A DNA stretch of 46,058 nt from Pseudomonadota bacterium (GTDB taxonomy: Bacteria; Chloroflexota; UBA6077; JAJPHF01): the NCBI GenBank assembly GCA_021325365.1, contig JAJPHF010000175.1:1-46058 (forward strand), written 5' to 3'. The first letter of the stretch is position 1; each line of letters starts with the position of its first letter. Positions 7,696-19,744 of this stretch are shown here, in pieces. Made by a program: the position numbers and the translations under genes. The notes below the pieces were generated by a model. The model saw only the letters and a list, made by a program, of their open reading frames with translations. It had not been told where the DNA came from and made no database searches.

Positions 7696-10092
7696 GTGCG
7701 AGTGGGTTCTACGGCAGTGCTGTCGGCAACGCGGGGACGGCTGCGCCTGCGCTACGCGGCGCTCGTGCCGCCGCACGGGAATGACCTTACCGCGCTGCCC
7801 GGCGTGCTGGCGGTGGCCACCTACCCGCGTAGCGGCTCGCTGGTGGTGCGCTTCGACCCGGCGCGCACGTCCGCCGACGCGATCCTCGCCGCGCTCGACG
7901 GCGCCGTCGGGGCCGGCGGCGCGGCGCTTCTGGCCGCCCGCGCGAATGGCCAGGTCGCGGCGCACGGGCAGCGGCCGCCGCGCACGCCGCGGGCCGACGG
8001 CGGCGCGGCCGCACGCGCGCCCGCGCCCGCGGCGCCCACTCACCTGGGGCACGACCACACGCACCAGGACGGCTCGCTGACGGGCGCGGTAACACGGCTG
8101 GCGGTCGGCGCCGCGGTCCTGGCGGTCCTCGTCCTGCGCCGGCTGCTGCTCGGCCGCGCGGCTACCACGCCGCCCGCGCGCTTCGCCGTGGCGGGTGGCG
8201 TGCTCGGCCTCGTAACGGGCTACCCCTTCTTCAAGGGCCTCGTCCGAACGGTCACTGGGCGCCAGGGGCTGGATACCGACACGCTCGTCGCGGTCGCCAC
8301 GCTCGTGTCCATCATCATGCGCGAGAGCATCATCGCGCTGGTCGTCCTCTTCCTGCTGAACCTGGGCGAGCTGCTCCAGGCGCTCGTGCTGCGGCGCACC
8401 CGCCTCGCCATCCGCGCCCTGCTTGTCGACCAGGGGGATGCCTGGGTGGTCCTGGAAGGCGCTGAGGTGCGCACGCCGGTCGACCAGCTCCGGCCGGGCG
8501 ACGTGGTCGCGGTCTATCGCGGCGATCGCCTGCCCGCCGACGGCGTCGTGGTCGAGGGCGAGGGCGCTGTGAACGAGGCGCCGATCACGGGCGAATCGCT
8601 GCCCAGCTACAAGCACCCGCCCGCGGCCGTGTGGGCGGGGACGATCGTCGAGTCGGGGGCGCTGCGCTTCCGCGTGCAGCGCGTGGGCACCGAGACGGCC
8701 GTGGGGCGCCTGATCGAGCGGGTGGAGGAGGCCGAGGAGCTGCGCGCCCCCATCGCTACCCTCGGCGAGCGCTTCGCCCGCCGCTTCGTGCCGTTCTCGT
8801 TCGCGCTGGCCGCCGCGGTGTTCCTCGTCACGCGGGATGCCCGCCGCGCCATGACGATGCTGCTCGTCGCCTGCCCGTGCGCCGCCGGGCTCAGCACGCC
8901 CACCGCCGTGAGCGCGGCCATCGCCAACGCGGCCCGTCGCGGCGTGCTTATCAAGGGCGGCACCCATCTGGAGGCGGCCGGCCAGATCGACGCCGTGGTG
9001 TTCGACAAGACCGGCACCCTCACCGTCGGCCTGCCGCGTGTGTCCATGGTCTACAGCCTTCAGGACGACGTGGCGCCCGAGGCCGTGCTGGCGCTCGCCG
9101 CCAGCGGCGAGTTCCACTCCAAGCACCCGCTGGCCCTCGCCGTCGTGCGCCACGCCGAGGAGCGCGCGATCGAGATCCCCACCCACGAGGAGTGCGAGGT
9201 CCTGGTCGGCCAGGGCGTGCGCGCGGACATGCAGGGCAACCGCATCCTCGTCGGCAGCGACCGGCTGCTGGAGCAGTTTGGGCTGGCGCCCCCGCGCCGC
9301 GGCAGCCAGCTCGCGGCGCGGCTCAGCCGCAAGGGCGAGACGCCGCTCTACCTGGCCTTCAACGACCGCGTGCTCGGCGTGCTGGGCATCGCCGACCAGC
9401 TCCGTCCCGAGTCGGCCGCCGCCCTGGCCGCCATCCGCGCCGCCGGCATTCGGCGCATCGTCCTGCTGACCGGCGACACGCGGGTCGTGGCCGACGCGGT
9501 GGGGCGCCGCCTCGGGCTGCCCGCCGCCGACGTGCGCGCCCGCGCGCTGCCCGAGGACAAGTACGCAGTGGTGCGCGAGCTGCAGGAGGCGGGCTACCGA
9601 GTTGCGATGGTGGGCGACGGCATCAACGACGCGCCGGCGCTGGCGGCGGCCGATCTCGGCATCGCCATGGGGACGGCGGGCAGCGACGTGGCCATCGAGG
9701 CCGCCGACCTGGCGCTTGCCGGCAACGACATTCGCCAGGTGGCGAGCGTGGTCTACCTGGGCCGCGCGACGCTCGGCGTGATCCGCGAGAACTACGGCCT
9801 CTCGATCGGCGTCAACAGCCTCGGCATCGTGGTGGGCGCCTTCGGCGCCTTGAACCCGCTCGTGGCCGCCGTGCTGCACAACCTGTCCAGTCTGGCCGTG
9901 CTCGCCAACTCGGCCCGGTTGATCCGCTATCATGACCCGAGCACGCAGCTACCCCGGCGGCGCGCGCGCGCCGCGCCACCCAGCGCCTCGGGGGAGCCAA
10001 CGACGGTCGTTACGCTCCACGCTCCGAAGAGCAGGCGCCTCCCCGGACAGACGCGCACGGCGCGGCGCCGGCCCGCGCCACGGCCGGACTAG
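7696..10092 (+). CDS. ctpC: Heavy-metal P-type ATPase, CtpC-like (Mn/Zn export)
   Basis: 798 residues with all P1B-ATPase marks: TGES 298-301, membrane motif CPCAAG 393-398, DKTGT 437-441, SEFHSKHP-like HP (477-478), TGD 592-594 and GDGINDAP 640-647. The stretches ANAARRGVLIKGGTHLEAAG, IPTHEECEVLVGQGV and VLHNLSSLAVLANSARLIRY are those of mycobacterial CtpC, an exporter of Mn or Zn. Position 5 of the motif is Ala instead of the usual Val/Leu. The N-terminal 70 residues look like an HMA fold without CxxC, followed by a linker with HLGHDHTH (116-123), likely metal binding. The start is GTG 7696 or GTG 7702. A small PacL-like gene follows, and regulators of XRE and Fur type lie just beyond. Confidence 0.92.
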   Translation: MRVGSTAVLSATRGRLRLRYAALVPPHGNDLTALPGVLAVATYPRSGSLVVRFDPARTSADAILAALDGAVGAGGAALLAARANGQVAAHGQRPPRTPRADGGAAARAPAPAAPTHLGHDHTHQDGSLTGAVTRLAVGAAVLAVLVLRRLLLGRAATTPPARFAVAGGVLGLVTGYPFFKGLVRTVTGRQGLDTDTLVAVATLVSIIMRESIIALVVLFLLNLGELLQALVLRRTRLAIRALLVDQGDAWVVLEGAEVRTPVDQLRPGDVVAVYRGDRLPADGVVVEGEGAVNEAPITGESLPSYKHPPAAVWAGTIVESGALRFRVQRVGTETAVGRLIERVEEAEELRAPIATLGERFARRFVPFSFALAAAVFLVTRDARRAMTMLLVACPCAAGLSTPTAVSAAIANAARRGVLIKGGTHLEAAGQIDAVVFDKTGTLTVGLPRVSMVYSLQDDVAPEAVLALAASGEFHSKHPLALAVVRHAEERAIEIPTHEECEVLVGQGVRADMQGNRILVGSDRLLEQFGLAPPRRGSQLAARLSRKGETPLYLAFNDRVLGVLGIADQLRPESAAALAAIRAAGIRRIVLLTGDTRVVADAVGRRLGLPAADVRARALPEDKYAVVRELQEAGYRVAMVGDGINDAPALAAADLGIAMGTAGSDVAIEAADLALAGNDIRQVASVVYLGRATLGVIRENYGLSIGVNSLGIVVGAFGALNPLVAAVLHNLSSLAVLANSARLIRYHDPSTQLPRRRARAAPPSASGEPTTVVTLHAPKSRRLPGQTRTARRRPAPRPD

Positions 10093-11136: not shown

Positions 11137-11571
11137 TCAGCCGGCGCCGCCCTGGCAGGCCTGGCAGGTGCCGAACACCTCGACGTGATGGCCCGCCGGC
11201 TGGAAGTGCGCCTCGCGGGTGATCGTGCGCAGCGCCCGCTCGACGGCGCCCGCGACGATGGAGGTGACCTGCCCGCACGACGTGCAGACGAGGTGGTGGT
11301 GGTGCTGACGGGCGCAGAACGTGTAGCTGTGGCACTGCACGTCGCCGTGCAGCCGCTCGAGCAGCCCCGTCTGGACGAGCAAGTCGAGCGCGCGGAACAC
11401 GGTGGCACGGCCGATGCCGCGCGGCGCCAGCTCGTCCACCAGCTCCCGCGCCGTGAACGGCGTCGTGCGCGCCGCGATCGCCTCGGCAATCGCCACGCGG
11501 GTGCTCGTGTGGCGGTAGCCCTGCGCGGCTAACTGCTGCAAGAGCAACTCAGCGCGCGAATCGTCGGCCAC
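11137..11571 (-). CDS. Fur-family metal-responsive regulator, probably Zur-like
   Basis: 144 residues from GTG 11571 (GTG 11574 also possible). The winged-helix half reads LLLQQLAAQGYRHTSTRVAIAEAI, then FTARELVDELAPRGIGRATVFRALDLLVQTGLLERL. The metal half has HHHHLVCTSCGQV (His90-93, Cys96, Cys99) and a C-terminal CQAC (Cys136, Cys139), the two CxxC pairs that hold the structural zinc of Fur/Zur proteins. Acidic residues after VERAL and the HH at 128-129 complete a sensing site. Zur-type is preferred because of the neighbouring CtpC-like pump and lack of iron genes, but Fur, Mur or PerR cannot be excluded. The longer frame to 11799 lacks homology. Confidence 0.88.
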   Translation of the reverse strand: MADDSRAELLLQQLAAQGYRHTSTRVAIAEAIAARTTPFTARELVDELAPRGIGRATVFRALDLLVQTGLLERLHGDVQCHSYTFCARQHHHHLVCTSCGQVTSIVAGAVERALRTITREAHFQPAGHHVEVFGTCQACQGGAG

Positions 11572-11661
11572 CACCTCTGCTCGCCTTCCGCGAAATACGG
11601 CGGCTGGCCCAGCCGCCGCACGGCCGCCTCCCCAGCGGCGCCCCTGCCCGCTGCCAGTAAA

Positions 11662-11672
11662 CAATTGTACCG
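11662..11672 (-). promoter_or_regulatory. Possible -10 or operator of the Fur-type gene
   Basis: Minus strand GGTACAATTGT, identical to the element before the XRE gene, about 90 bases before GTG 11571. It contains TACAAT and the 8-base palindrome ACAATTGT. Confidence 0.4.
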
Positions 11673-11792
11673 CGCGCGCCGCGCCGTCTCCCAGACCACG
11701 CCCCGTCGCCGCCAGCCGGGGTCGGACACGGCCACCTGGAGGCTGCTGCCCCACAGGGATCCGCAGGGCGGCGTTCACCGCCCGGCTGTCGG

Positions 11793-11821
11793 TCGGCACG
11801 CGCCCCGCACGCCGCTATGAT
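11793..11821 (+). promoter_or_regulatory. Possible sigma-70-type promoter of the TolB-like gene
   Basis: TCGGCA at 11793-11798 and TATGAT at 11816-11821 are spaced by 17 bases. The hexamers match the consensus at 4 and 5 positions. The hairpin at 11849-11881 would lie in the transcribed leader. Confidence 0.4.
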
Positions 11822-11881: not shown

Positions 11882-11943
11882 GGCGCAGCACCACCGCGGG
11901 CCACGCCGGAACATGAGACAGTAGCCGCCAGGAGTTGCCCGGC

Positions 11944-12978
11944 ATGTTCGGTTTCGTGCGGCTCACATTCGGCGCCGCCCTCCTGCTGGCGCTCGTGGCG
12001 CTGGGGCTGCTGCGCCCGGCCGCCGCCCAGGACGCGGCCCGCCCGGTCGGGCGCATCCTCGTGCCGCGCGACGCGGCCGTCTGGACGGTGCAGGCCGCCT
12101 CGGGCGCGGAACAGCTGGTGGCCAGCAGTCCGGACCAGGGGCCGATCCTCGACGCGGCGCTCTCCCCCGACGGTCAGCAGGCCGTGTACGCCCGGATCGC
12201 CGTGACGGGCGAGCTGGGCAGCGCCCTGTACGTCGTCCCCGCCAACGGCGGCACGCCCCGCCTGCTGCTCGACCACGATGCGCCCGGCGCGATGCTCACC
12301 ATGCCGATCTGGGCCGCGGACGGCGCGAGCATCCTATACACCTACACGCCCTACGCGGTAGGGACGAGCGGCCCCGACGCCGAGCCGCGCGTCGAGCGCA
12401 TCCGTCCCGACGGCAGCGGGCGCGAGGTGGTGGTGCGCGAGGCCACATCGCCCGCGCCCTCGGCCGACGGCCAGACCCTCGCCTACCTGCGGTCCACCCG
12501 CGTCGGCGACGCGCTCTGGCTCGCCGACGCGACCGGCGCGAACGGGCGCGAGCTGGTGCCCGACAGCCGCTTCCTGAGCCTCGCCTACCCGCGCCTCAGC
12601 CCCGACGGCACCCAGGTCGCCTTCGCCGCCACGGTGGACCTCGCCACGCCCTCCGCCCCCTCCGGCCCGTATACCCCTCCCGGCCCGACCGGCCCCACCG
12701 GTCCATCGCTGCCCCGCACGCCATTCGCCTGGCACCCCGCGCCCGGCGCCATGCACGGCCTCCCGTGGGACATCTGGCTCATCGGCACGGATGGCAGCGG
12801 CCTCCGCCGCCTGACCTACATGGCCGAGGACGACCCCTCGCTGGCCTGGTCGCCGGACGGACGCTGGCTCGCCATCCAGGGCGGCTCCGGCCTTACCCTG
12901 GTCGAGGTCAGCAGCGGCCACACCGAGCGGCTGTCGCGCGAGGCGGCCTTCGGCGCCATTGACTGGGGCCGCGAGTAG
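11944..12978 (+). CDS. Exported TolB-like beta-propeller protein (PD40 repeats)
   Basis: 344 residues from ATG 11944 (GGAG 9 bases upstream). A signal peptide covers about residues 1-29 (hydrophobic FGAALLLALVALGLL, ending AAAQ). Several PD40/WD40-like strands follow: LSPDGQQAVYA, WAADGASILYT, SADGQTLAYLR, LSPDGTQVAFA and WSPDGRWLAIQ, with GLRRLTYMAEDDPSLAW near the end. A Pro/Gly-rich loop (about 239-262) interrupts the propeller. Such proteins are binding or scaffold proteins on the cell surface; there is no enzyme signature and no tol genes nearby. Confidence 0.85.
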   Translation: MFGFVRLTFGAALLLALVALGLLRPAAAQDAARPVGRILVPRDAAVWTVQAASGAEQLVASSPDQGPILDAALSPDGQQAVYARIAVTGELGSALYVVPANGGTPRLLLDHDAPGAMLTMPIWAADGASILYTYTPYAVGTSGPDAEPRVERIRPDGSGREVVVREATSPAPSADGQTLAYLRSTRVGDALWLADATGANGRELVPDSRFLSLAYPRLSPDGTQVAFAATVDLATPSAPSGPYTPPGPTGPTGPSLPRTPFAWHPAPGAMHGLPWDIWLIGTDGSGLRRLTYMAEDDPSLAWSPDGRWLAIQGGSGLTLVEVSSGHTERLSREAAFGAIDWGRE

Positions 12979-12996: not shown

Positions 12997-14907
12997 TCAG
13001 CGGCCGCGCAGGGCGCGCGGGCGCTTGCGGCGCCCCGCCAGCGGCGCGGGGCGGCCGCCGGGCGCGAGGAAGGGCAGGCCCAGCGCCAGCACGGCGACCG
13101 CCAGGGGCAGCGCCGCCGCCGTGCCGCTGGGGTTGTGGAAGGCGCCGGCCTCGGCGATCGGCAGGTCCAACGAGCCGCTCACGTCGTCGCGCCCGGCGCG
13201 CCGCACCACCGCCTCGATCCCCCAGTCGCCCGCCATCGAGAAGGCGCTCGTGGACAGCCGATAGTGGCCGTCGCCGCTGGGACTCAGGCGCTGCTCGAAG
13301 GTACCCATGTCCATCTCGTGGTGGGTGAAGCGCAGGGTGATGCGCTGGACGTCGGGGAGTGGCTGCCCGGCCGCGAGCACGGCCGCGTCGACGGTATTCA
13401 GGCCGGCGACCCCGGGCGCTACGCGGAGCTGCACCTGCACGTCCTCGGCTCGCAGCGTGCGAGCTAGGCCCTCCGCGCGCACCACGTCGCGCGCCGGCTC
13501 CAGGCTGGTGAGCACGCCCACGACCGCCAGCACCGCCACGCCCAGCCCCACCTCGGCGGCCACCGCCCGGCGCAGCGCCCGCGCGGTGGCCGCGAGCGCC
13601 GGCGCGGCGTCCGGCGCGCGCGGCGCCGCACGGGCAGCCAGGCCCACGCGCGGGGTGACGACGCGCAGGTTGAAGGCGCCGAGCGCCAGCAGGAAGAGCA
13701 CGAGCCCCAGTTTCACCAGCAGGGCCTGGCCATAGGTGGTGCCCAGGAGCGCCTCCCAGTCGCCGATCTCCGCCCACGCCTGATAGAGCCCCGTGACCGC
13801 CAGGGCCGCGACGCTGGCAATGGCCCAGGTGGAGAACCGCGGCAGCAGCGCGGCGAGCGTGGCAGCGCGGAGCGGCGCGGGCAGCGCGCCGAGTGCGGCG
13901 GGGAGCGCCACGACGATCTGCACGAGGCCGCCGAGCCAGATCGCCGCCGCGGCCAGGTGCGCCCAGTCGGCGCCGAGCGCCAGGATGGTGCCGGGCGCCG
14001 TGGCGGCCGCGTGGCTGGTGGCGCTCTGCGCCGCGAGCAGCCCCGCCCCGAGGCCGAGGCCCAGCAGCCAGCCGCGGTGGTCCACGGCGACGGCGGGGCG
14101 CCGCAGCCGTAGCGCCAGCGCGCCGAGCGCCACGACGCAGGCTACACGGCCCGCCCAGATCGCCGCGTAGCGCGTGGCGAACAGCGCGCCCAGCGGCGCG
14201 CCGAGCGCCTGCCAGGGCTCCACGTCGGCCGCGGCGGCCGCCTGCACGACCAGCGCGAGCACGGCGGCGCCGAGGCCCAGACCGGCGGCCCCGGCCGCCA
14301 CCCCCAGCCCCCGGCGGCGGCCGGCCTCCCACGCGGCCGCGGCCGCCGCCGCGTCCTCGGGCGCGACCAGCCGCAGCGCGCCGCCCAGCACGCGCGGCAA
14401 GAACACGAATGGCCCAACCAGTACGACGGCGGCCAGCAAGCTCAGCCAGCGGCTGACGATCGCCCAGGGACTGGGGGGCGCGCCGCCGGCCTCGGTCCCC
14501 GGCAACGCCACCGGCGCGGGCGTCTGGTCGAGGCCCACGGTGAAGGGGAAGGCGCCGCGCGCCACGTGGCCGTCGACCGCCGAGACGGTCTTCCAGGCGA
14601 CCGAGTAGGTGCCGGGAGACAGGTCGCCCAGGCCGACGACGAGCGCGCGCGCGCTGCCCGGCAGCGCCGCCAGATTGTCGCGGTCCACGCGGTGGCGCGC
14701 GCCGTCGTAGACGCGCAGCTCGCTGAAGCGCAGCTCGGCGTCCTCGGTAAACCAGACGCGGACCTCGCTCGGCGCCCGCGCGAGGATGGCGTTTGGCGAG
14801 GGGTCCGAGCGCTCGTAGGTCGCGTGGGCCATGGCCCGGCCCGGCGCCGCGCCCAGCACGAACGCCACGACGACGAGGCCCAGCGCGCCGCGCAGCCCTC
14901 GACGCAC
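12997..14907 (-). CDS. CopC-CopD-YtkA fusion, copper resistance membrane protein
   Basis: 636 residues from GTG 14907 (GGAGG upstream). A signal peptide ends AMA, leaving His28 as the new N-terminus (HATYERSDPSPNA). The CopC domain runs to about 125 with Asp112/His114 in SAVDGHVARG; N-terminal His plus this Asp-x-His form the Cu(II) site in CopC proteins. Residues 148-470 are a CopD-type membrane domain with about eight helices and His299 and His317 (DWAHLAAAAIWLGG). A YtkA-like domain with RITLRFTHHEMDMGTFEQ at 522-539 follows, then a last helix (598-615) and a basic tail. It probably takes copper across or delivers it to the membrane. It is the shorter paralogue of the gene at 17414-19744 and lacks the cytochrome. 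Confidence 0.92.
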   Translation of the reverse strand: MRRGLRGALGLVVVAFVLGAAPGRAMAHATYERSDPSPNAILARAPSEVRVWFTEDAELRFSELRVYDGARHRVDRDNLAALPGSARALVVGLGDLSPGTYSVAWKTVSAVDGHVARGAFPFTVGLDQTPAPVALPGTEAGGAPPSPWAIVSRWLSLLAAVVLVGPFVFLPRVLGGALRLVAPEDAAAAAAAWEAGRRRGLGVAAGAAGLGLGAAVLALVVQAAAAADVEPWQALGAPLGALFATRYAAIWAGRVACVVALGALALRLRRPAVAVDHRGWLLGLGLGAGLLAAQSATSHAAATAPGTILALGADWAHLAAAAIWLGGLVQIVVALPAALGALPAPLRAATLAALLPRFSTWAIASVAALAVTGLYQAWAEIGDWEALLGTTYGQALLVKLGLVLFLLALGAFNLRVVTPRVGLAARAAPRAPDAAPALAATARALRRAVAAEVGLGVAVLAVVGVLTSLEPARDVVRAEGLARTLRAEDVQVQLRVAPGVAGLNTVDAAVLAAGQPLPDVQRITLRFTHHEMDMGTFEQRLSPSGDGHYRLSTSAFSMAGDWGIEAVVRRAGRDDVSGSLDLPIAEAGAFHNPSGTAAALPLAVAVLALGLPFLAPGGRPAPLAGRRKRPRALRGR

Positions 14908-15086: not shown

Positions 15087-15551
15087 GTGGTACGCTCGTG
15101 GGTTGACCAGCTCCGGCCGCTGCTCATCGTCGGGCTGTTGCTCACCCTGCCCGTCGTCTGCCACAACGAGACGGCCGTCGTGATCCTGACCGCGGCCGCC
15201 GCCGGCCATGAGCACCAGCACATGATGGCGGAGGCCGCCGGCGAGCCCCAGCCGGCGCGCGCGGCCCACCACCACGCCGCGGCTCACGCGCACGCGGCCT
15301 CGGCGCCCGCCGCCAGCGCGCTCGCGCTGGTCCACGCGGGTTCCCCCGCGCCATTTCCGTGGCGCGCGTACCAGGCGACCCCGCTGGCCCAGAGCCTCCC
15401 CGCGGCCACGGACGGCATCGTCCTGGCGGACACGCTCGACCTGACCGCGCCCGTCGCGCTGTCCAGCCCGCTCGGGGGCGTCGACGCCGCCGCGCCGGCC
15501 CCCCAGCGCCGGGCGCCTCCGGCCCCACCCCCCCGCGCCTTCCTCGGCTAG
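15087..15551 (+). CDS. Small His-rich exported or membrane-anchored protein of the copper cluster
   Basis: 154 residues from GTG 15087 with GGAAGG upstream. One hydrophobic segment (residues 8-38) is followed by HEHQHMM (41-47) and HHHAAAHAHA (61-70), an obvious metal-binding stretch. The second half is Pro/Ala-rich and ends in QRRAPPAPPPRAF. I do not recognise a named family; the layout (short signal/anchor, CHxxxA near the membrane, His-rich loop, Pro-rich C-terminus) resembles small DUF2946-like proteins found beside copper genes. It is the first plus-strand gene of the cluster and likely binds copper outside the membrane. This is inference from composition and position. Confidence 0.65.
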   Translation: MVRSWVDQLRPLLIVGLLLTLPVVCHNETAVVILTAAAAGHEHQHMMAEAAGEPQPARAAHHHAAAHAHAASAPAASALALVHAGSPAPFPWRAYQATPLAQSLPAATDGIVLADTLDLTAPVALSSPLGGVDAAAPAPQRRAPPAPPPRAFLG

Positions 15552-15781: not shown

Positions 15782-16597
15782 ATGCGCTTTACCCTGTTCC
15801 GCGTGCTCGCCGGGCTCAGCCTGGCCACGATGATGCTGATCGGAGCGCCACGGGCGGCCTCCGCCCACGCGCGCTACGACCACTCCGATCCCGCCGGCGA
15901 CAGCGTCGTGCCCACCGCGCCCACCCAGGTCCAGGCCTGGTTCACCGAGGGCGTGCGTAGCCAGGGCAGCAGCCTCCAGGTGACGGACGCCGCGGGCAAC
16001 CGTGTGGACAACAACGACGGCCAGGTGGACCTCAACGATCCGGACCGCAAGCGCATGTTCGTCTCGCTACCGCCGCTGCCGGACGGCGTCTACACCGTCA
16101 ACTGGGTCACCGTCTCGGCTGACGACGGCGACCAGGCCGAGGGCAGCTTCCGCTTCGGCGTGGGCGTCAACACCGTGCTGCCCCCGCTGCCCGCCGGGGG
16201 CCCGGTCCCAACGATCTCCATCGCCAACACGACCGTCAACGGCCACGAGGTGCGGCTACACGTGAACGTCGAGGGCGCCACGCTGGGCATGCCGGCGAGC
16301 GGCGACATGGACATGAGCGCGGGTGGCATGGCCAACATGAGCCAGGACGTGATGAACGGCGGCGCGGGCCAGCCGGGGATGGCGGCCGGCGGCATGGCGA
16401 CGGCGCCCGGCGCGCTGCCGCAAGGCCACCTCCACGTCTATGTGGACGGCGTGATGCTCCAGATGGTGTACCAGCCCGACGTCGTGCTCACGGACGTGCC
16501 GTCGGGCACCCACCAGGTGCGGGTCGAGCTATCGAACAACGCGCACCAGGACTGGAATCCGCCCGTCATGGCGACCACGACGGTTGTGGTCCCGTAG
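15782..16597 (+). CDS. Exported CopC-domain protein with Met-rich insertion
   Basis: 271 residues; GAGGAGGAACGA directly precedes ATG 15782. The signal peptide ends AASA (residue 28), giving N-terminal His29 (HARYDHSDPAGDS). A CopC fold covers 29-128: VQAWFTEGV, LQVTDAAGNRVD, YTVNWVTVSADDGDQAEGSFRFGV. Where CopC proteins have Asp-Gly-His, this one has Asp115-Gly-Asp117, so the second His of the Cu(II) site is missing. Residues 170-205 carry eight Met (MDMSAGGMANMSQDVM...), typical of Cu(I) binding. The C-terminal domain has GHLHVYVDGVMLQMVYQ and SGTHQVRVELSNNAHQDW, a pattern seen in extracellular proteins with a YtkA/DUF4399-like fold. It is a likely periplasmic-side copper carrier for the downstream membrane fusion. 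Confidence 0.88.
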   Translation: MRFTLFRVLAGLSLATMMLIGAPRAASAHARYDHSDPAGDSVVPTAPTQVQAWFTEGVRSQGSSLQVTDAAGNRVDNNDGQVDLNDPDRKRMFVSLPPLPDGVYTVNWVTVSADDGDQAEGSFRFGVGVNTVLPPLPAGGPVPTISIANTTVNGHEVRLHVNVEGATLGMPASGDMDMSAGGMANMSQDVMNGGAGQPGMAAGGMATAPGALPQGHLHVYVDGVMLQMVYQPDVVLTDVPSGTHQVRVELSNNAHQDWNPPVMATTTVVVP

Positions 16598-16654: not shown

Positions 16655-17326
16655 ATGCACCGCCTCGCACGCCTGGTCGGCATCGTCGCCCTGACGGGGC
16701 TAGCGCTAAGCTTCCTTGCGCCCGCCACTGCCAGCGCCCACGAGCGCCGCACCGTGGCCGGCACCTACCAGTTCGTCGTCGGCTTCCTGAAGGAGCCGGC
16801 GCTGGAGGGCGACCCGAACGGCATCGACCTGCGGGTGAGTACGGCCGACGACCAGCCCGTCGAGGGGCTGGAGCAGACGCTCAAGGCCGAGGTCATTGTC
16901 GGCGGCGCCACCCTGCCGCTGCAGCTCACGCCGCGCTTCCGCACGCCGGGCGCCTACGACGGCGACTTCGTGCCGACGCGGCCGGGCACCTACATCTTCC
17001 ACTTCAGCGGCACCGTCAACGGCCAGCCGGTCGACGAGCGCTTCGAGTCCGGGCCAGGCCGCTTCAACGACGTGGAGGCCGTGGCGCCGCTCCAGTTCCC
17101 CGACAAGGTGCCCGTCGGCGCCGACCTGCAGCAGGCGCTTGCGGCAGCGAATAGCCGCGCCGCCACTGCCACCACGCTCGCCGTGATCGGGCTGGTGGCC
17201 GGCCTGGCGGGGCTGGCGCTCGCGGCCTGGGCGCTGCTCAGCCGCCGCGGCGCCGCAAGCCCGGCGCCGCGCACGGTCCCGACCGCCGCGCCCCCGGCGC
17301 CGGCGGCTTCGCAAGAGCGTCTCTAA
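16655..17326 (+). CDS. Exported, C-terminally anchored protein of unknown function in copper cluster
   Basis: 223 residues from ATG 16655 (GAGAGGA upstream). A signal peptide ends ATASA, leaving His29-Glu-Arg-Arg as N-terminus. Residues 30-150 look like an all-beta domain: VAGTYQFVVGFLKEPA, NGIDLRVS, QPVEGLEQTLKAEV, GAYDGDFVPTRPGTYIFHFSGTVNG, ESGPGRFNDVE. One C-terminal helix (about 173-195) and an Arg/Pro tail follow. The VEGLE and GTYIFHF...G pattern suggests an immunoglobulin-like, YtkA/CopC-type fold. No named family is recognised; homologues beside copC genes are known to me only as hypothetical proteins. The free N-terminal His and the neighbours suggest copper handling at the membrane surface. 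Confidence 0.8.
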   Translation: MHRLARLVGIVALTGLALSFLAPATASAHERRTVAGTYQFVVGFLKEPALEGDPNGIDLRVSTADDQPVEGLEQTLKAEVIVGGATLPLQLTPRFRTPGAYDGDFVPTRPGTYIFHFSGTVNGQPVDERFESGPGRFNDVEAVAPLQFPDKVPVGADLQQALAAANSRAATATTLAVIGLVAGLAGLALAAWALLSRRGAASPAPRTVPTAAPPAPAASQERL

Positions 17327-17413: not shown

Positions 17414-19744
17414 GTGCGACGATTCACTCACCTGGGGCTGGCCGCGCTAGCCGCGACGCTGCTCGTCCTCGGCTCGGCGCGCGGCGTGGCGGCCCACGCG
17501 AACTACGAGAAGTCCGACCCGCCCGCGAACGCCATTCTGGCACAGCCGCCGAGCCAGATCCGGGTGTGGTTCAGCGAGCAGCCGGAGCCGCGCTTCAGCG
17601 AGCTGCAGGTCTTCGACTCGTCGCGCCAGCGCGTCGATCGCGGCAATCTGTCGCCCGTGCCGGGCGACGACCGCGCGCTCGATATCGGCCTGCAGGATAA
17701 CCTGCCCCCCGGCACCTACACCGTCACCTGGAAGACCGTCTCCGCGGTGGACGGCCACACGGCGCGCGGCGCGTTCCCGTTCACCGTCGGCCTCGACCAG
17801 ACCCCGGCGCCCATGGTCTTGCCGCAGGGCGCCGATCTCGCCGCCACCTCGGCGACGCCGTGGTCGGTGACCAGTCGCTGGCTCTCGCTGCTCACCGCCG
17901 TGCTGCTGGCCGGCACCTTCCTGTTCCTGCCGCTCATCCTCGGCAGCGCGCTCCGCGCTGTCGCCCGCGGCGAGGACGCCGAAAGCGCCGCCGCCGCCTG
18001 GGGGGCGGGCCGCCGCCGCGGCCTGCAGCTGGCGGTGGCCGCCGCCATCGCCGGGCTCCTCGTCGGCGTCTACGCCCTGCTCGTCCAGGCCGGCAGCGCC
18101 GTCGACAAGCCGCCCTGGGAAGCCTTCGGCGCCCCGCTCGCCACGATCCTGGGCACGCGCTACAGCGTCCTCTGGGCGGTGCGAATGCTCGCCGTCGCGG
18201 CGCTCGGCGGGCTCGCCTGGTACTTGCAGCGGCCCGGCATCACCGCCCGCTTCAGCGGCTGGTGGGCCGGCCTCGCCCTCGGCGGCCTGCTGCTGGTGAC
18301 GATCAGCCTGAACAGCCACGGCGCCGCGGCCCAGGAGTGGACGGTGGTGGCGGTGGCTGTGGACTGGGTCCACCTCATCGCCACGACCATCTGGATCGGC
18401 GGGCTCGCGCAGCTCGTGGTGGCGGTGCCGGCCGCGCTCCCCGCGCTCGGCGGCACGGGGCGCGGCCGGCTCCTCGCCGCCGTGATCCCGCGCTTCTCCA
18501 CCTGGGCGCTGGGCGCCGTCGGCGCCCTGGTCATTACGGGGCTGTACCAGACCTGGCTGGAGGTCGGCGGGCCGGACGCGCTGACGGCCACCCCCTACGG
18601 CCAGACGCTGATCGTCAAGATCGCCCTGCTCGTGCCGCTCCTCGCGCTCGGCGCCGCCAACCTGCTCGTGCTCAGCCCGCGCGTCGCGAAGGCCGTCGAG
18701 CGGGGCAGCCGCGCCGCCGTCGGGCGCCTGGGCGGGCTGGAGCGTCTCTTCCGCCTGGCGGTGCTCGCCGAAGTGGCGCTCGGCGTCATCATCCTGGGCG
18801 TCGTGGGCGTGCTCACCAGCCTGGAGCCGGCGCGCGACGCGATTCGCGAGCAAGGCGTCGTCCACACCGTCCAGGTGGGCGACCTGCGCGCCGTGGTGCG
18901 CGTGGCGCCCGGCGAGGCCGGCCTGAACACCTTCGACGTGGCGCTCTCGCAAGGTGACCAGCCCGTGAGCGATGCCCAGCGCGTTACACTGCGCTTCAAC
19001 CACACGCAGATGGACATGGGCGTCAGCGACTTGCAGCTCGCCCCGGTCGGCGACGGCCACTACCGCGCCGTGGGCGGCACGCTCTCCATGAGCGGCACCT
19101 GGGACGTGCAGGTGATCGTGCGGCAGGCCGGCCGCGACGACGAGCAGGGCGCCCTGACGGTCACGGCCCTCGATCCGAACCAGGCGCAGGCCCAGAGCGG
19201 CGCGGCCCCTGGCAGCAGCGGCGAGCCGCCCACGCGCCTGATCGTCGGCGGCGTGGTGCTGGCGCTCGGCGTGCTCTTCCTGATCGACGCCGTGCGGCCG
19301 TCGCGGCGCCGCCGCCAGTCAGCCACCGTCGCGCTCGGCTGCGTGGCCGCCGTGGTGGGGCTGAGCCTGGCGACCGCCGCCGCCCTCTACCCCACGGGCG
19401 GCGACGTGGTGATCCCCAACCCGGTACCCCGCAGCCAGGCGTCGATCGCGCGCGGCCAGGAGCTGTACCAGCAGAACTGCGTCATCTGCCACGGTCTGAA
19501 CGCGCGCGGCGACGGTCCGCTGGCCGCCAGCCTCAACCCGCGGCCGGCCGACCTGCGCCTGCACGTCTCCCAGCACACCGAGGGGCAGCTGTGGACGTGG
19601 GTCAGCGACGGCTTCCCGGGCAGCGCCATGCCCGCCTTCCGCAGCACGCTGAGCGACGAGGACCGCTGGAACATCATCAACTACCTGGAGTCGCAGTACG
19701 GCGCCACCGCGAGCAACGGCGCGGCCGCGCCGCCCGGCTCCTGA
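17414..19744 (+). CDS. CopC-CopD-YtkA-cytochrome c four-part fusion
   Basis: 776 residues from GTG 17414 (GGAGG 5 bases upstream). Order: signal peptide to VAA (27); CopC domain 28-125 with N-terminal His28 and Asp113/His115 (SAVDGHTARG); CopD membrane domain about 150-470 with His302 and His320 (DWVHLIATTIWIGG); YtkA-like domain about 485-588 with RVTLRFNHTQMDMG; two helices at 609-626 and 637-660; then a mono-haem cytochrome c domain 675-763 with CVICH (689-693) and axial Met739 in GSAMPAF, ending DEDRWNIINYLESQYG. The first 585 residues are about as long as, and similar to, the minus-strand paralogue. The cytochrome may pass electrons to or from copper, for example at an oxidase; this is inference. 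Last gene of the plus-strand cluster. Confidence 0.93.
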   Translation: MRRFTHLGLAALAATLLVLGSARGVAAHANYEKSDPPANAILAQPPSQIRVWFSEQPEPRFSELQVFDSSRQRVDRGNLSPVPGDDRALDIGLQDNLPPGTYTVTWKTVSAVDGHTARGAFPFTVGLDQTPAPMVLPQGADLAATSATPWSVTSRWLSLLTAVLLAGTFLFLPLILGSALRAVARGEDAESAAAAWGAGRRRGLQLAVAAAIAGLLVGVYALLVQAGSAVDKPPWEAFGAPLATILGTRYSVLWAVRMLAVAALGGLAWYLQRPGITARFSGWWAGLALGGLLLVTISLNSHGAAAQEWTVVAVAVDWVHLIATTIWIGGLAQLVVAVPAALPALGGTGRGRLLAAVIPRFSTWALGAVGALVITGLYQTWLEVGGPDALTATPYGQTLIVKIALLVPLLALGAANLLVLSPRVAKAVERGSRAAVGRLGGLERLFRLAVLAEVALGVIILGVVGVLTSLEPARDAIREQGVVHTVQVGDLRAVVRVAPGEAGLNTFDVALSQGDQPVSDAQRVTLRFNHTQMDMGVSDLQLAPVGDGHYRAVGGTLSMSGTWDVQVIVRQAGRDDEQGALTVTALDPNQAQAQSGAAPGSSGEPPTRLIVGGVVLALGVLFLIDAVRPSRRRRQSATVALGCVAAVVGLSLATAAALYPTGGDVVIPNPVPRSQASIARGQELYQQNCVICHGLNARGDGPLAASLNPRPADLRLHVSQHTEGQLWTWVSDGFPGSAMPAFRSTLSDEDRWNIINYLESQYGATASNGAAAPPGS

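Follow-up and report, generated by a model that had tools for sequence, protein, structure and literature searches.

The copper importer YcnJ of Bacillus subtilis carries CopC, CopD and YtkA domains on one chain and supports heme-copper oxidases, and histidines in both its CopC and its CopD domain are required for it to support an oxidase (PMC13344008). YcnJ acts under copper limitation, with cytosolic Cu(I) in the current model (PMC13344008). The 2025 paper on YcnJ left open whether copper is reduced during passage through the transporter (PMC12362106), and the 2026 paper associated no known reductase with YcnJ, naming CcoG as a reductase elsewhere (PMC13344008). A PepSY_TM protein of another bacterium was also recently proposed to be an oxidase-supporting copper reductase (PMC13038864). 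Here, we describe a gene on contig JAJPHF010000175.1 from a member of the Chloroflexota (46,058 nucleotides, called the window below), the product of which resembles YcnJ in having CopC, CopD and YtkA in that order on one chain, based on Pfam and fold matches. YcnJ ends at YtkA as described (PMC13344008, PMC12362106), whereas in this fusion YtkA is followed by two helices that form a hairpin and then by a haem c domain. Searches of a library of open-licence literature, with subscription papers mostly outside that scope, listed no paper recognizable by its title or abstract opening as dealing with a CopC-CopD-cytochrome fusion. The separate parts are already known, and what is new here is the four-part chain together with an invariant histidine pair in its cytochrome. 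The gene and its parts are as follows (fractions refer to aligned fusions):

17414–19744, plus strand: CopC-CopD-YtkA-(two transmembrane helices)-cytochrome c fusion gene, 776 amino acids
17414–17494, plus strand: predicted signal peptide, residues 1–27 (hydrophobic segment 4–27, putative cleavage after it)
17495–17788, plus strand: CopC domain, residues 28–125, with predicted Cu(II) ligands H28, D113 and H115 and no Met
17855–18829, plus strand: CopD membrane domain, residues 148–472 (PF05425; the NF033808 match falls below its cut-off)
18854–19168, plus strand: YtkA domain, residues 481–585, with H530, M533, M535 and M559 in the window member
19232–19387, plus strand: two-helix membrane hairpin with a basic loop, residues 607–658 (helices in the AlphaFold2 model)
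19412–19711, plus strand: cytochrome c domain, residues 667–766
19478–19492, plus strand: haem attachment motif CVICH, residues 689–693 (C689, C692 and H693 in 69/69)
19562–19576, plus strand: His717 and His721, a putative relay for electrons between copper and haem (69/69)
19628–19630, plus strand: axial haem ligand Met739 (69/69)

The initial annotation, made from the window's letters only, had reported CopC, CopD, YtkA and haem c domains in one 776-residue chain, and this is borne out. The reading frame is uninterrupted over 776 codons, from a GTG start to a stop that ends at 19744, and the Pfam matches were all above cut-off: CopC (residues 28–125, 73.4 bits), CopD (356–467, 73.4 bits), YtkA (489–567, 42.7 bits), and Cytochrome_CBB3 (677–758, 51.7 bits) and Cytochrom_C (678–760, 47.4 bits). 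An AlphaFold2 model of the chain had a mean predicted local distance difference test score (pLDDT) of 88.5 and a predicted template modelling score (pTM) of 0.84. A protein search over approximately 5.8 billion proteins, in which 7,989 candidates were scored, 240 passed the threshold and 120 were listed, recovered the CopC, CopD and cytochrome c families together in 69 of the 120 listed matches. A second search with residues 590–776 added 15 such clusters, bringing the architecture that the annotation proposed to look for to 84 clusters. PF13115 (YtkA) was detected by Pfam in 24 of the 69 listed matches, and the strict four-family layout is therefore a subset.

These homologues also bear on whether two genes could have been merged by a frameshift or an assembly join, which the annotation had named, for residues 590 to 670, as an event that would refute its claim. 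Independent homologues share the layout, which refutes this explanation: 84 clusters combine the three families, and the closest listed matches (P0002–P0020) are 60–83% identical over 95–100% of the query. In addition, the GC content of third codon positions stays at 0.96–0.98 across residues 551–750, with no step at the suspected junction, and the fusion's own cluster holds two member sequences from two contigs. We found nothing in favor of an artefact, which has practically no probability left, and the CopC-CopD-YtkA-cytochrome c chain is real.

Residues likely to handle copper were compared in an alignment of 69 of the 84 fusion clusters (alignment A2; mainly unusually long clusters and near-duplicates were left out). 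His28 directly follows a hydrophobic leader ending in AA in the window's fusion and, in line with the free N-terminal His of CopC that the annotation had proposed, is predicted to be the mature N-terminus; it is present in 69/69 fusions. It forms, with Asp113 and His115 (each also 69/69), the His, Asp, His site typical of YcnJ-type importers, and homology supports Cu(II) binding by this predicted site. The CopC domain of the window's fusion contains no Met and therefore has the Cu(II) site only. A conserved functional histidine in the CopD membrane domain likewise marks YcnJ-type importers. The fusion has H302 and H320 there, either of which may correspond to YcnJ H295; they pair with H135 and H154 of Escherichia coli YebZ in an alignment and are kept, along with K402 and E453, in 69/69 fusions; copper import by the fusion CopD is predicted, with support from homology. 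YtkA differs in this respect. W563 is kept in all 69 rows, whereas H530 occurs in 22/69, M535 in 29/69 and M559 in 29/69, which weakens the idea that CopC generally hands copper to a Cu(I) site conserved in YtkA.

The remaining part of the chain appears to hold a haem on the same side of the membrane as CopC. Two hydrophobic segments were found at the hairpin in 58/69 fusions, and the loop between them (residues 626–634) has five K/R and no D/E, in agreement with a haem c on the exported side in the predicted topology; homology also supports a location of the cytochrome outside the membrane. CVICH and axial Met739, both pointed out by the annotation, lie where it had put them, and a CxxCH motif with a sixth ligand about forty residues downstream, which defines class I c-type cytochromes (as in PMC9456337), was found in 69/69 fusions. 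The best match of the fusion in the PDB is cytochrome c552 of Thioalkalivibrio paradoxus (7o9u, 9vr0). In a phmmer alignment, H717 of the fusion pairs with c552 His83 and H721 with His87, and the same c552 numbering gives Cys55, Cys58, His59 and Met103, agreeing with the published residues (PMC9456337). This cytochrome is the electron acceptor of thiocyanate dehydrogenase, a copper enzyme, and in the published model its His83 forms a hydrogen bond with the 7-propionate of the haem and serves as a stepping point on the electron path from the dehydrogenase copper to the haem (PMC9456337). Both histidines of the pair are thus shared by c552 and the fusion cytochrome. The two systems otherwise differ, given that c552 is a free periplasmic protein without CopC or CopD fused to it and that its partner is a beta-propeller copper enzyme.

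The histidine pair H717/H721 is complete in 69/69 fusions of A2 and likewise invariant in a second alignment (A1; 33 rows, four of which are outside A2). The fusion cytochromes were also compared, in one alignment, with 124 related segments taken from genomic loci and 30 segments of other proteins. The loci had been retrieved with the patterns PRPADLRxHV and PG[ST]AMPAF (the best 80 of 138 loci were kept). The pair was present in 27 of 32 cytochrome segments of CopD-type loci (L001–L027 and L031; the 32 include L021 and L022, both with the pair, although no CopD was seen in L022 and L021 is cut by a contig end) and absent from all 92 segments of the 51 other loci, where blastp of the locus flanks, as opposed to the whole genome, detected no CopD. 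Five segments lack the full pair: one from L020, three that come first in a tandem of two cytochromes (L023, L025 and L027), and one from L014 that belongs to a COX2-like protein and not to the fusion. Eight of the 30 segments from other proteins carry the pair, namely those of the CopD proteins P0076, P0123, P0127 and P0137 and the free-standing pieces P0160–P0163; the CopD protein P0142 has the second His only. The first search pattern contains H717, and the 27/32 share is therefore inflated, but the 69/69 count is unaffected because the fusions came from protein searches. The pattern would equally favor H717-bearing cytochromes without CopD, of which none was established.

Where organism names were given, the fusions came from Chloroflexota, including Dehalococcoidia, SAR202 and Herpetosiphonaceae; most matches were nameless. 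We also scanned 301 genomes sampled from the phylum of L001, a metagenome-assembled genome titled Chloroflexi bacterium, the fusion of which is 62% identical to the one described here. A CopC-CopD-type match was found in 193/301 genomes and reached the cytochrome end in at least 51 (a lower bound, counted by eye from listed matches; the match in G058 begins within CopD, and those in G169, G270 and G003 have one in-frame stop). A search of a plasmid collection at an E value of 1e-20 gave no plasmid-borne match to the fusion. Separate cytochrome genes adjoin CopC-CopD genes in L023, L024 and L027 and, in L025, a CopC gene that is cut by the contig end; SCO1 (L023) and PCuAC (L027) are further neighbors of this split form. 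In a quickly built tree with 222 cytochrome domains, the CopD-linked label required three changes, against a mean of 74.4 when labels were shuffled, although the tree has few alignment columns, many weak forks and some assumed labels (L021, L022 and P0160–P0163 were labelled CopD-linked, despite L022 showing no CopD, L021 being cut by its contig end and the others having no context). The CopD-linked cytochromes could, on this tree, have had a single origin. A second tree compared 114 proteins over their first three domains and needed four changes of the cytochrome label, at least two of them on well-supported branches (shuffled mean, 35.6). It includes a second copy from the window itself:

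12997–14907, minus strand: CopC-CopD-YtkA paralogue without cytochrome, 636 amino acids, 54% identical to the fusion

This paralogue is nested among fusions in the tree, and it is therefore likely to have lost its cytochrome after duplication. The same cell thus has forms with and without haem.

Related haem c domains have also been joined to other membrane proteins. Thirteen more clusters, some of which may be fragments, combine CopD and cytochrome c without CopC, and two of these have PF00578. P0076, P0137 and P0142 join CopD to a cytochrome that groups in the tree with the lineage of the fusion, yet differ from it in lacking CopC and in having an extra C-terminal redoxin part (PF00578 in P0076 and P0142; a part that looks alike by eye in P0137). 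The C-terminal part of these three proteins ends in EHVH or AHVH, and the source of P0142 is named as Rokubacteria. P0147, P0149 and P0150 resemble the fusion in joining a metal permease to a related haem c domain, but the permease is of another family (PF03239) and the histidine pair is absent. PF03239 is the FTR1 iron permease family, and these proteins would be a parallel case for iron.

Considering these results together, we favor the view that the fusion acquires copper in the manner of YcnJ but brings a redox module along on its chain, such that uptake would be redox-coupled and reduction would be the preferred direction; we give this reading a probability of approximately 0.48. CopC would bind Cu(II) outside the membrane through His28, Asp113 and His115, and the haem c, held on the CopC side by the hairpin, would trade one electron with the copper via H717 and H721 at the haem edge. 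The likeliest direction would be from haem to copper, with electrons supplied by the respiratory chain, such that tightly held Cu(II) becomes Cu(I), as CopC-bound copper would have to before cytosolic use. Cu(I) might then be passed into the cell by CopD and/or to an oxidase under assembly by YtkA. That electrons pass between copper and haem, which way they run and where the copper is delivered are inferred here; the sequences themselves show the fusion, its wide conservation and its invariant residues, with the CopC ligands for Cu(II), the histidines of CopD, the haem-binding residues and the H717/H721 pair all kept in 69/69 fusions. A haem c with a dedicated histidine pair on the same chain would also fit a vacancy in this phylum, where CcoG (TIGR02745, E values up to 1e-10) was matched in 1/301 genomes and COX1 family proteins in 250/301. 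The likeness of the fusion to CcoG lies in the proposed role only, which for CcoG is Cu(II) reduction for cbb3 oxidase biogenesis (cited via PMC13344008); the fusion itself gave no match to TIGR02745 or its domains at E values up to 0.1. A more specific version of this proposal, which we regard as less likely than not, is an importer driven by respiratory electrons, running from the aerobic chain to haem c, H717/H721 and CopC copper, in which reduction itself would release the metal to CopD and the fusion would replace CcoG in Chloroflexota. Such an importer may also be a general answer to how a Cu(II)-binding CopC supplies a Cu(I)-using cell.

The initial annotation had suggested that the attached cytochrome couples copper transfer to electron transfer, for example by keeping copper as Cu(I) or Cu(II) during transport or by feeding a copper oxidase. 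Coupling as such gains from the histidine pair (69/69 versus 0/92), the alignment with c552 His83 and the separate cytochrome neighbors, while the direction of the electrons and the link to a copper oxidase found no support. Several observations weigh against redox-coupled reduction, and the direction of electron flow is its weak point. A His/Met haem is a mild reductant that should have difficulty reducing Cu(II) held by CopC, and reduction would therefore have to be pulled by removal of Cu(I). The YtkA Met and His residues vary, and hand-over of Cu(I) to YtkA can therefore not be general. Many of the 193 matching genomes carry the protein without the cytochrome, as does the second copy in the window, and the full pair is lacking in L020, in the first tandem cytochromes of L023, L025 and L027 and in P0142. 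COX1 is nearly as common in genomes without the fusion (203/250) as with it (47/51, likewise counted by eye), and this contrast proved too weak to use as a predictor of cytochrome presence. Moreover, the role of c552 His83 rests on docking, nuclear magnetic resonance shifts and a pH effect, and electrons in that system run from copper to haem, opposite to the direction favored here (PMC9456337).

The same precedent, coming from the closest solved cytochrome, speaks for a reversed flow, in which the haem would take electrons from Cu(I) and pass them to a terminal oxidase while CopC captures the resulting Cu(II), serving either detoxification or Cu(I) uptake. The Cu(II)-only site of the fusion CopC would suit such a cuprous oxidase, as would the related haem domains of the PF03239 proteins P0147, P0149 and P0150. 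FTR1-type systems, to which these presumably belong, oxidize iron. YcnJ, however, works under copper limitation, supports oxidases and is modelled with cytosolic Cu(I) (PMC13344008), and no multicopper oxidase was recognized among the 20 window open reading frames scanned, which are not all of those in the window; we therefore consider a cuprous oxidase unlikely. It is less likely still that the cytochrome mainly steers the copper protein to the docking site of a heme-copper oxidase or its CuA subunit, with electron transfer secondary. YtkA/CtaK proteins do assist CuA assembly (PMC13344008, PMC9145763), SCO1 or PCuAC genes adjoin the split form, and COX1 occurs in most fusion genomes. Docking, however, leaves unexplained an invariant pair that is missing from 92/92 segments of loci without a detected CopD, and the near-equal frequency of COX1 without the fusion counts against it too. 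Finally, the haem domain could be a tethered shuttle between complex III and the oxidase, linked to the copper proteins by nothing more than a common chain, an improbable arrangement despite the ordinary class I fold and matches to cytochrome subunits of alternative complex III (ACIII) and bc1 complexes, given the separate cytochromes that adjoin CopC/CopD genes elsewhere, the histidine pair and the three label changes against 74.4 in shuffled trees.

Other genes of the window near the fusion include the following:

7696–10092, plus strand: P-type ATPase that has a CPC motif and is rich in His near its N-terminus, close to the copper genes
11137–11799, minus strand: Fur-family regulator near the copper genes
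11935–12978, plus strand: PD40 (TolB-like) propeller protein
15087–15551, plus strand: small open reading frame, His-rich and hydrophobic at its start, lying between both sets of copper genes
15782–16597, plus strand: separate CopC protein (PF04234), 271 amino acids, with a Met/His-containing extension
16655–17326, plus strand: HERR partner gene, 223 amino acids, with a predicted N-terminal His29 after a signal peptide, a beta-sandwich and a C-terminal helix

The HERR partner marks a further difference from the YcnJ system, as it had no Pfam or NCBIfam match to DUF1775 at E values up to 0.1, and membership in the DUF1775/YcnI family was rejected for want of a sequence match. In Foldseek searches with its model, the top ranks went to a filamin domain, an oligosaccharyltransferase and chains of DUF4426, with CrdA in twelfth place (E value of 3.5e-3); CrdA ranked first only in a second look with VIA-align. 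YcnI was not among the listed fold matches, which excludes nothing. We also considered whether HERR is specific to cytochrome-bearing forms and rejected this: among 20 loci in which HERR lies beside a CopC-CopD-YtkA match short of the cytochrome (several of these stretches end early at a contig end), a separate cytochrome was clear in three. In these loci (L123, L125 and L126), a same-strand cytochrome frame follows 0.7 to 2.5 kb on, with H-x3-H in place by eye. In L120, a cytochrome in another frame overlaps the CopC-CopD-YtkA gene, as either an overlapping gene or a frameshift.

Relatives of the PD40 propeller occur downstream of the fusion in five of 20 fusion loci (L002, L003, L005, L007, L017 and L022 are named with this observation), and PD40 (PF07676) lies within the same chain in the long fusions P0043 and P0050. 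His274 of the propeller, in a motif like AHGIPWDLW, is invariant in nine aligned sequences. Because c552 works with a propeller enzyme, the PD40 protein may be an additional partner for copper or electrons.

The annotation had also asked whether the four-part layout is common and already characterized; it is common, while its characterization was not found in the literature covered here. The layout suggests how some bacteria may alter the charge state of copper during uptake. A haem tethered to a copper protein makes the reduction question posed by YcnJ a single-protein assay, and the invariant His717 and His721 offer two point mutations for testing. If redox-coupled uptake is correct, copper homeostasis would gain a branch for electron transfer in this phylum, in which COX1 is widespread (250/301 sampled genomes) and CcoG was found in 1/301.
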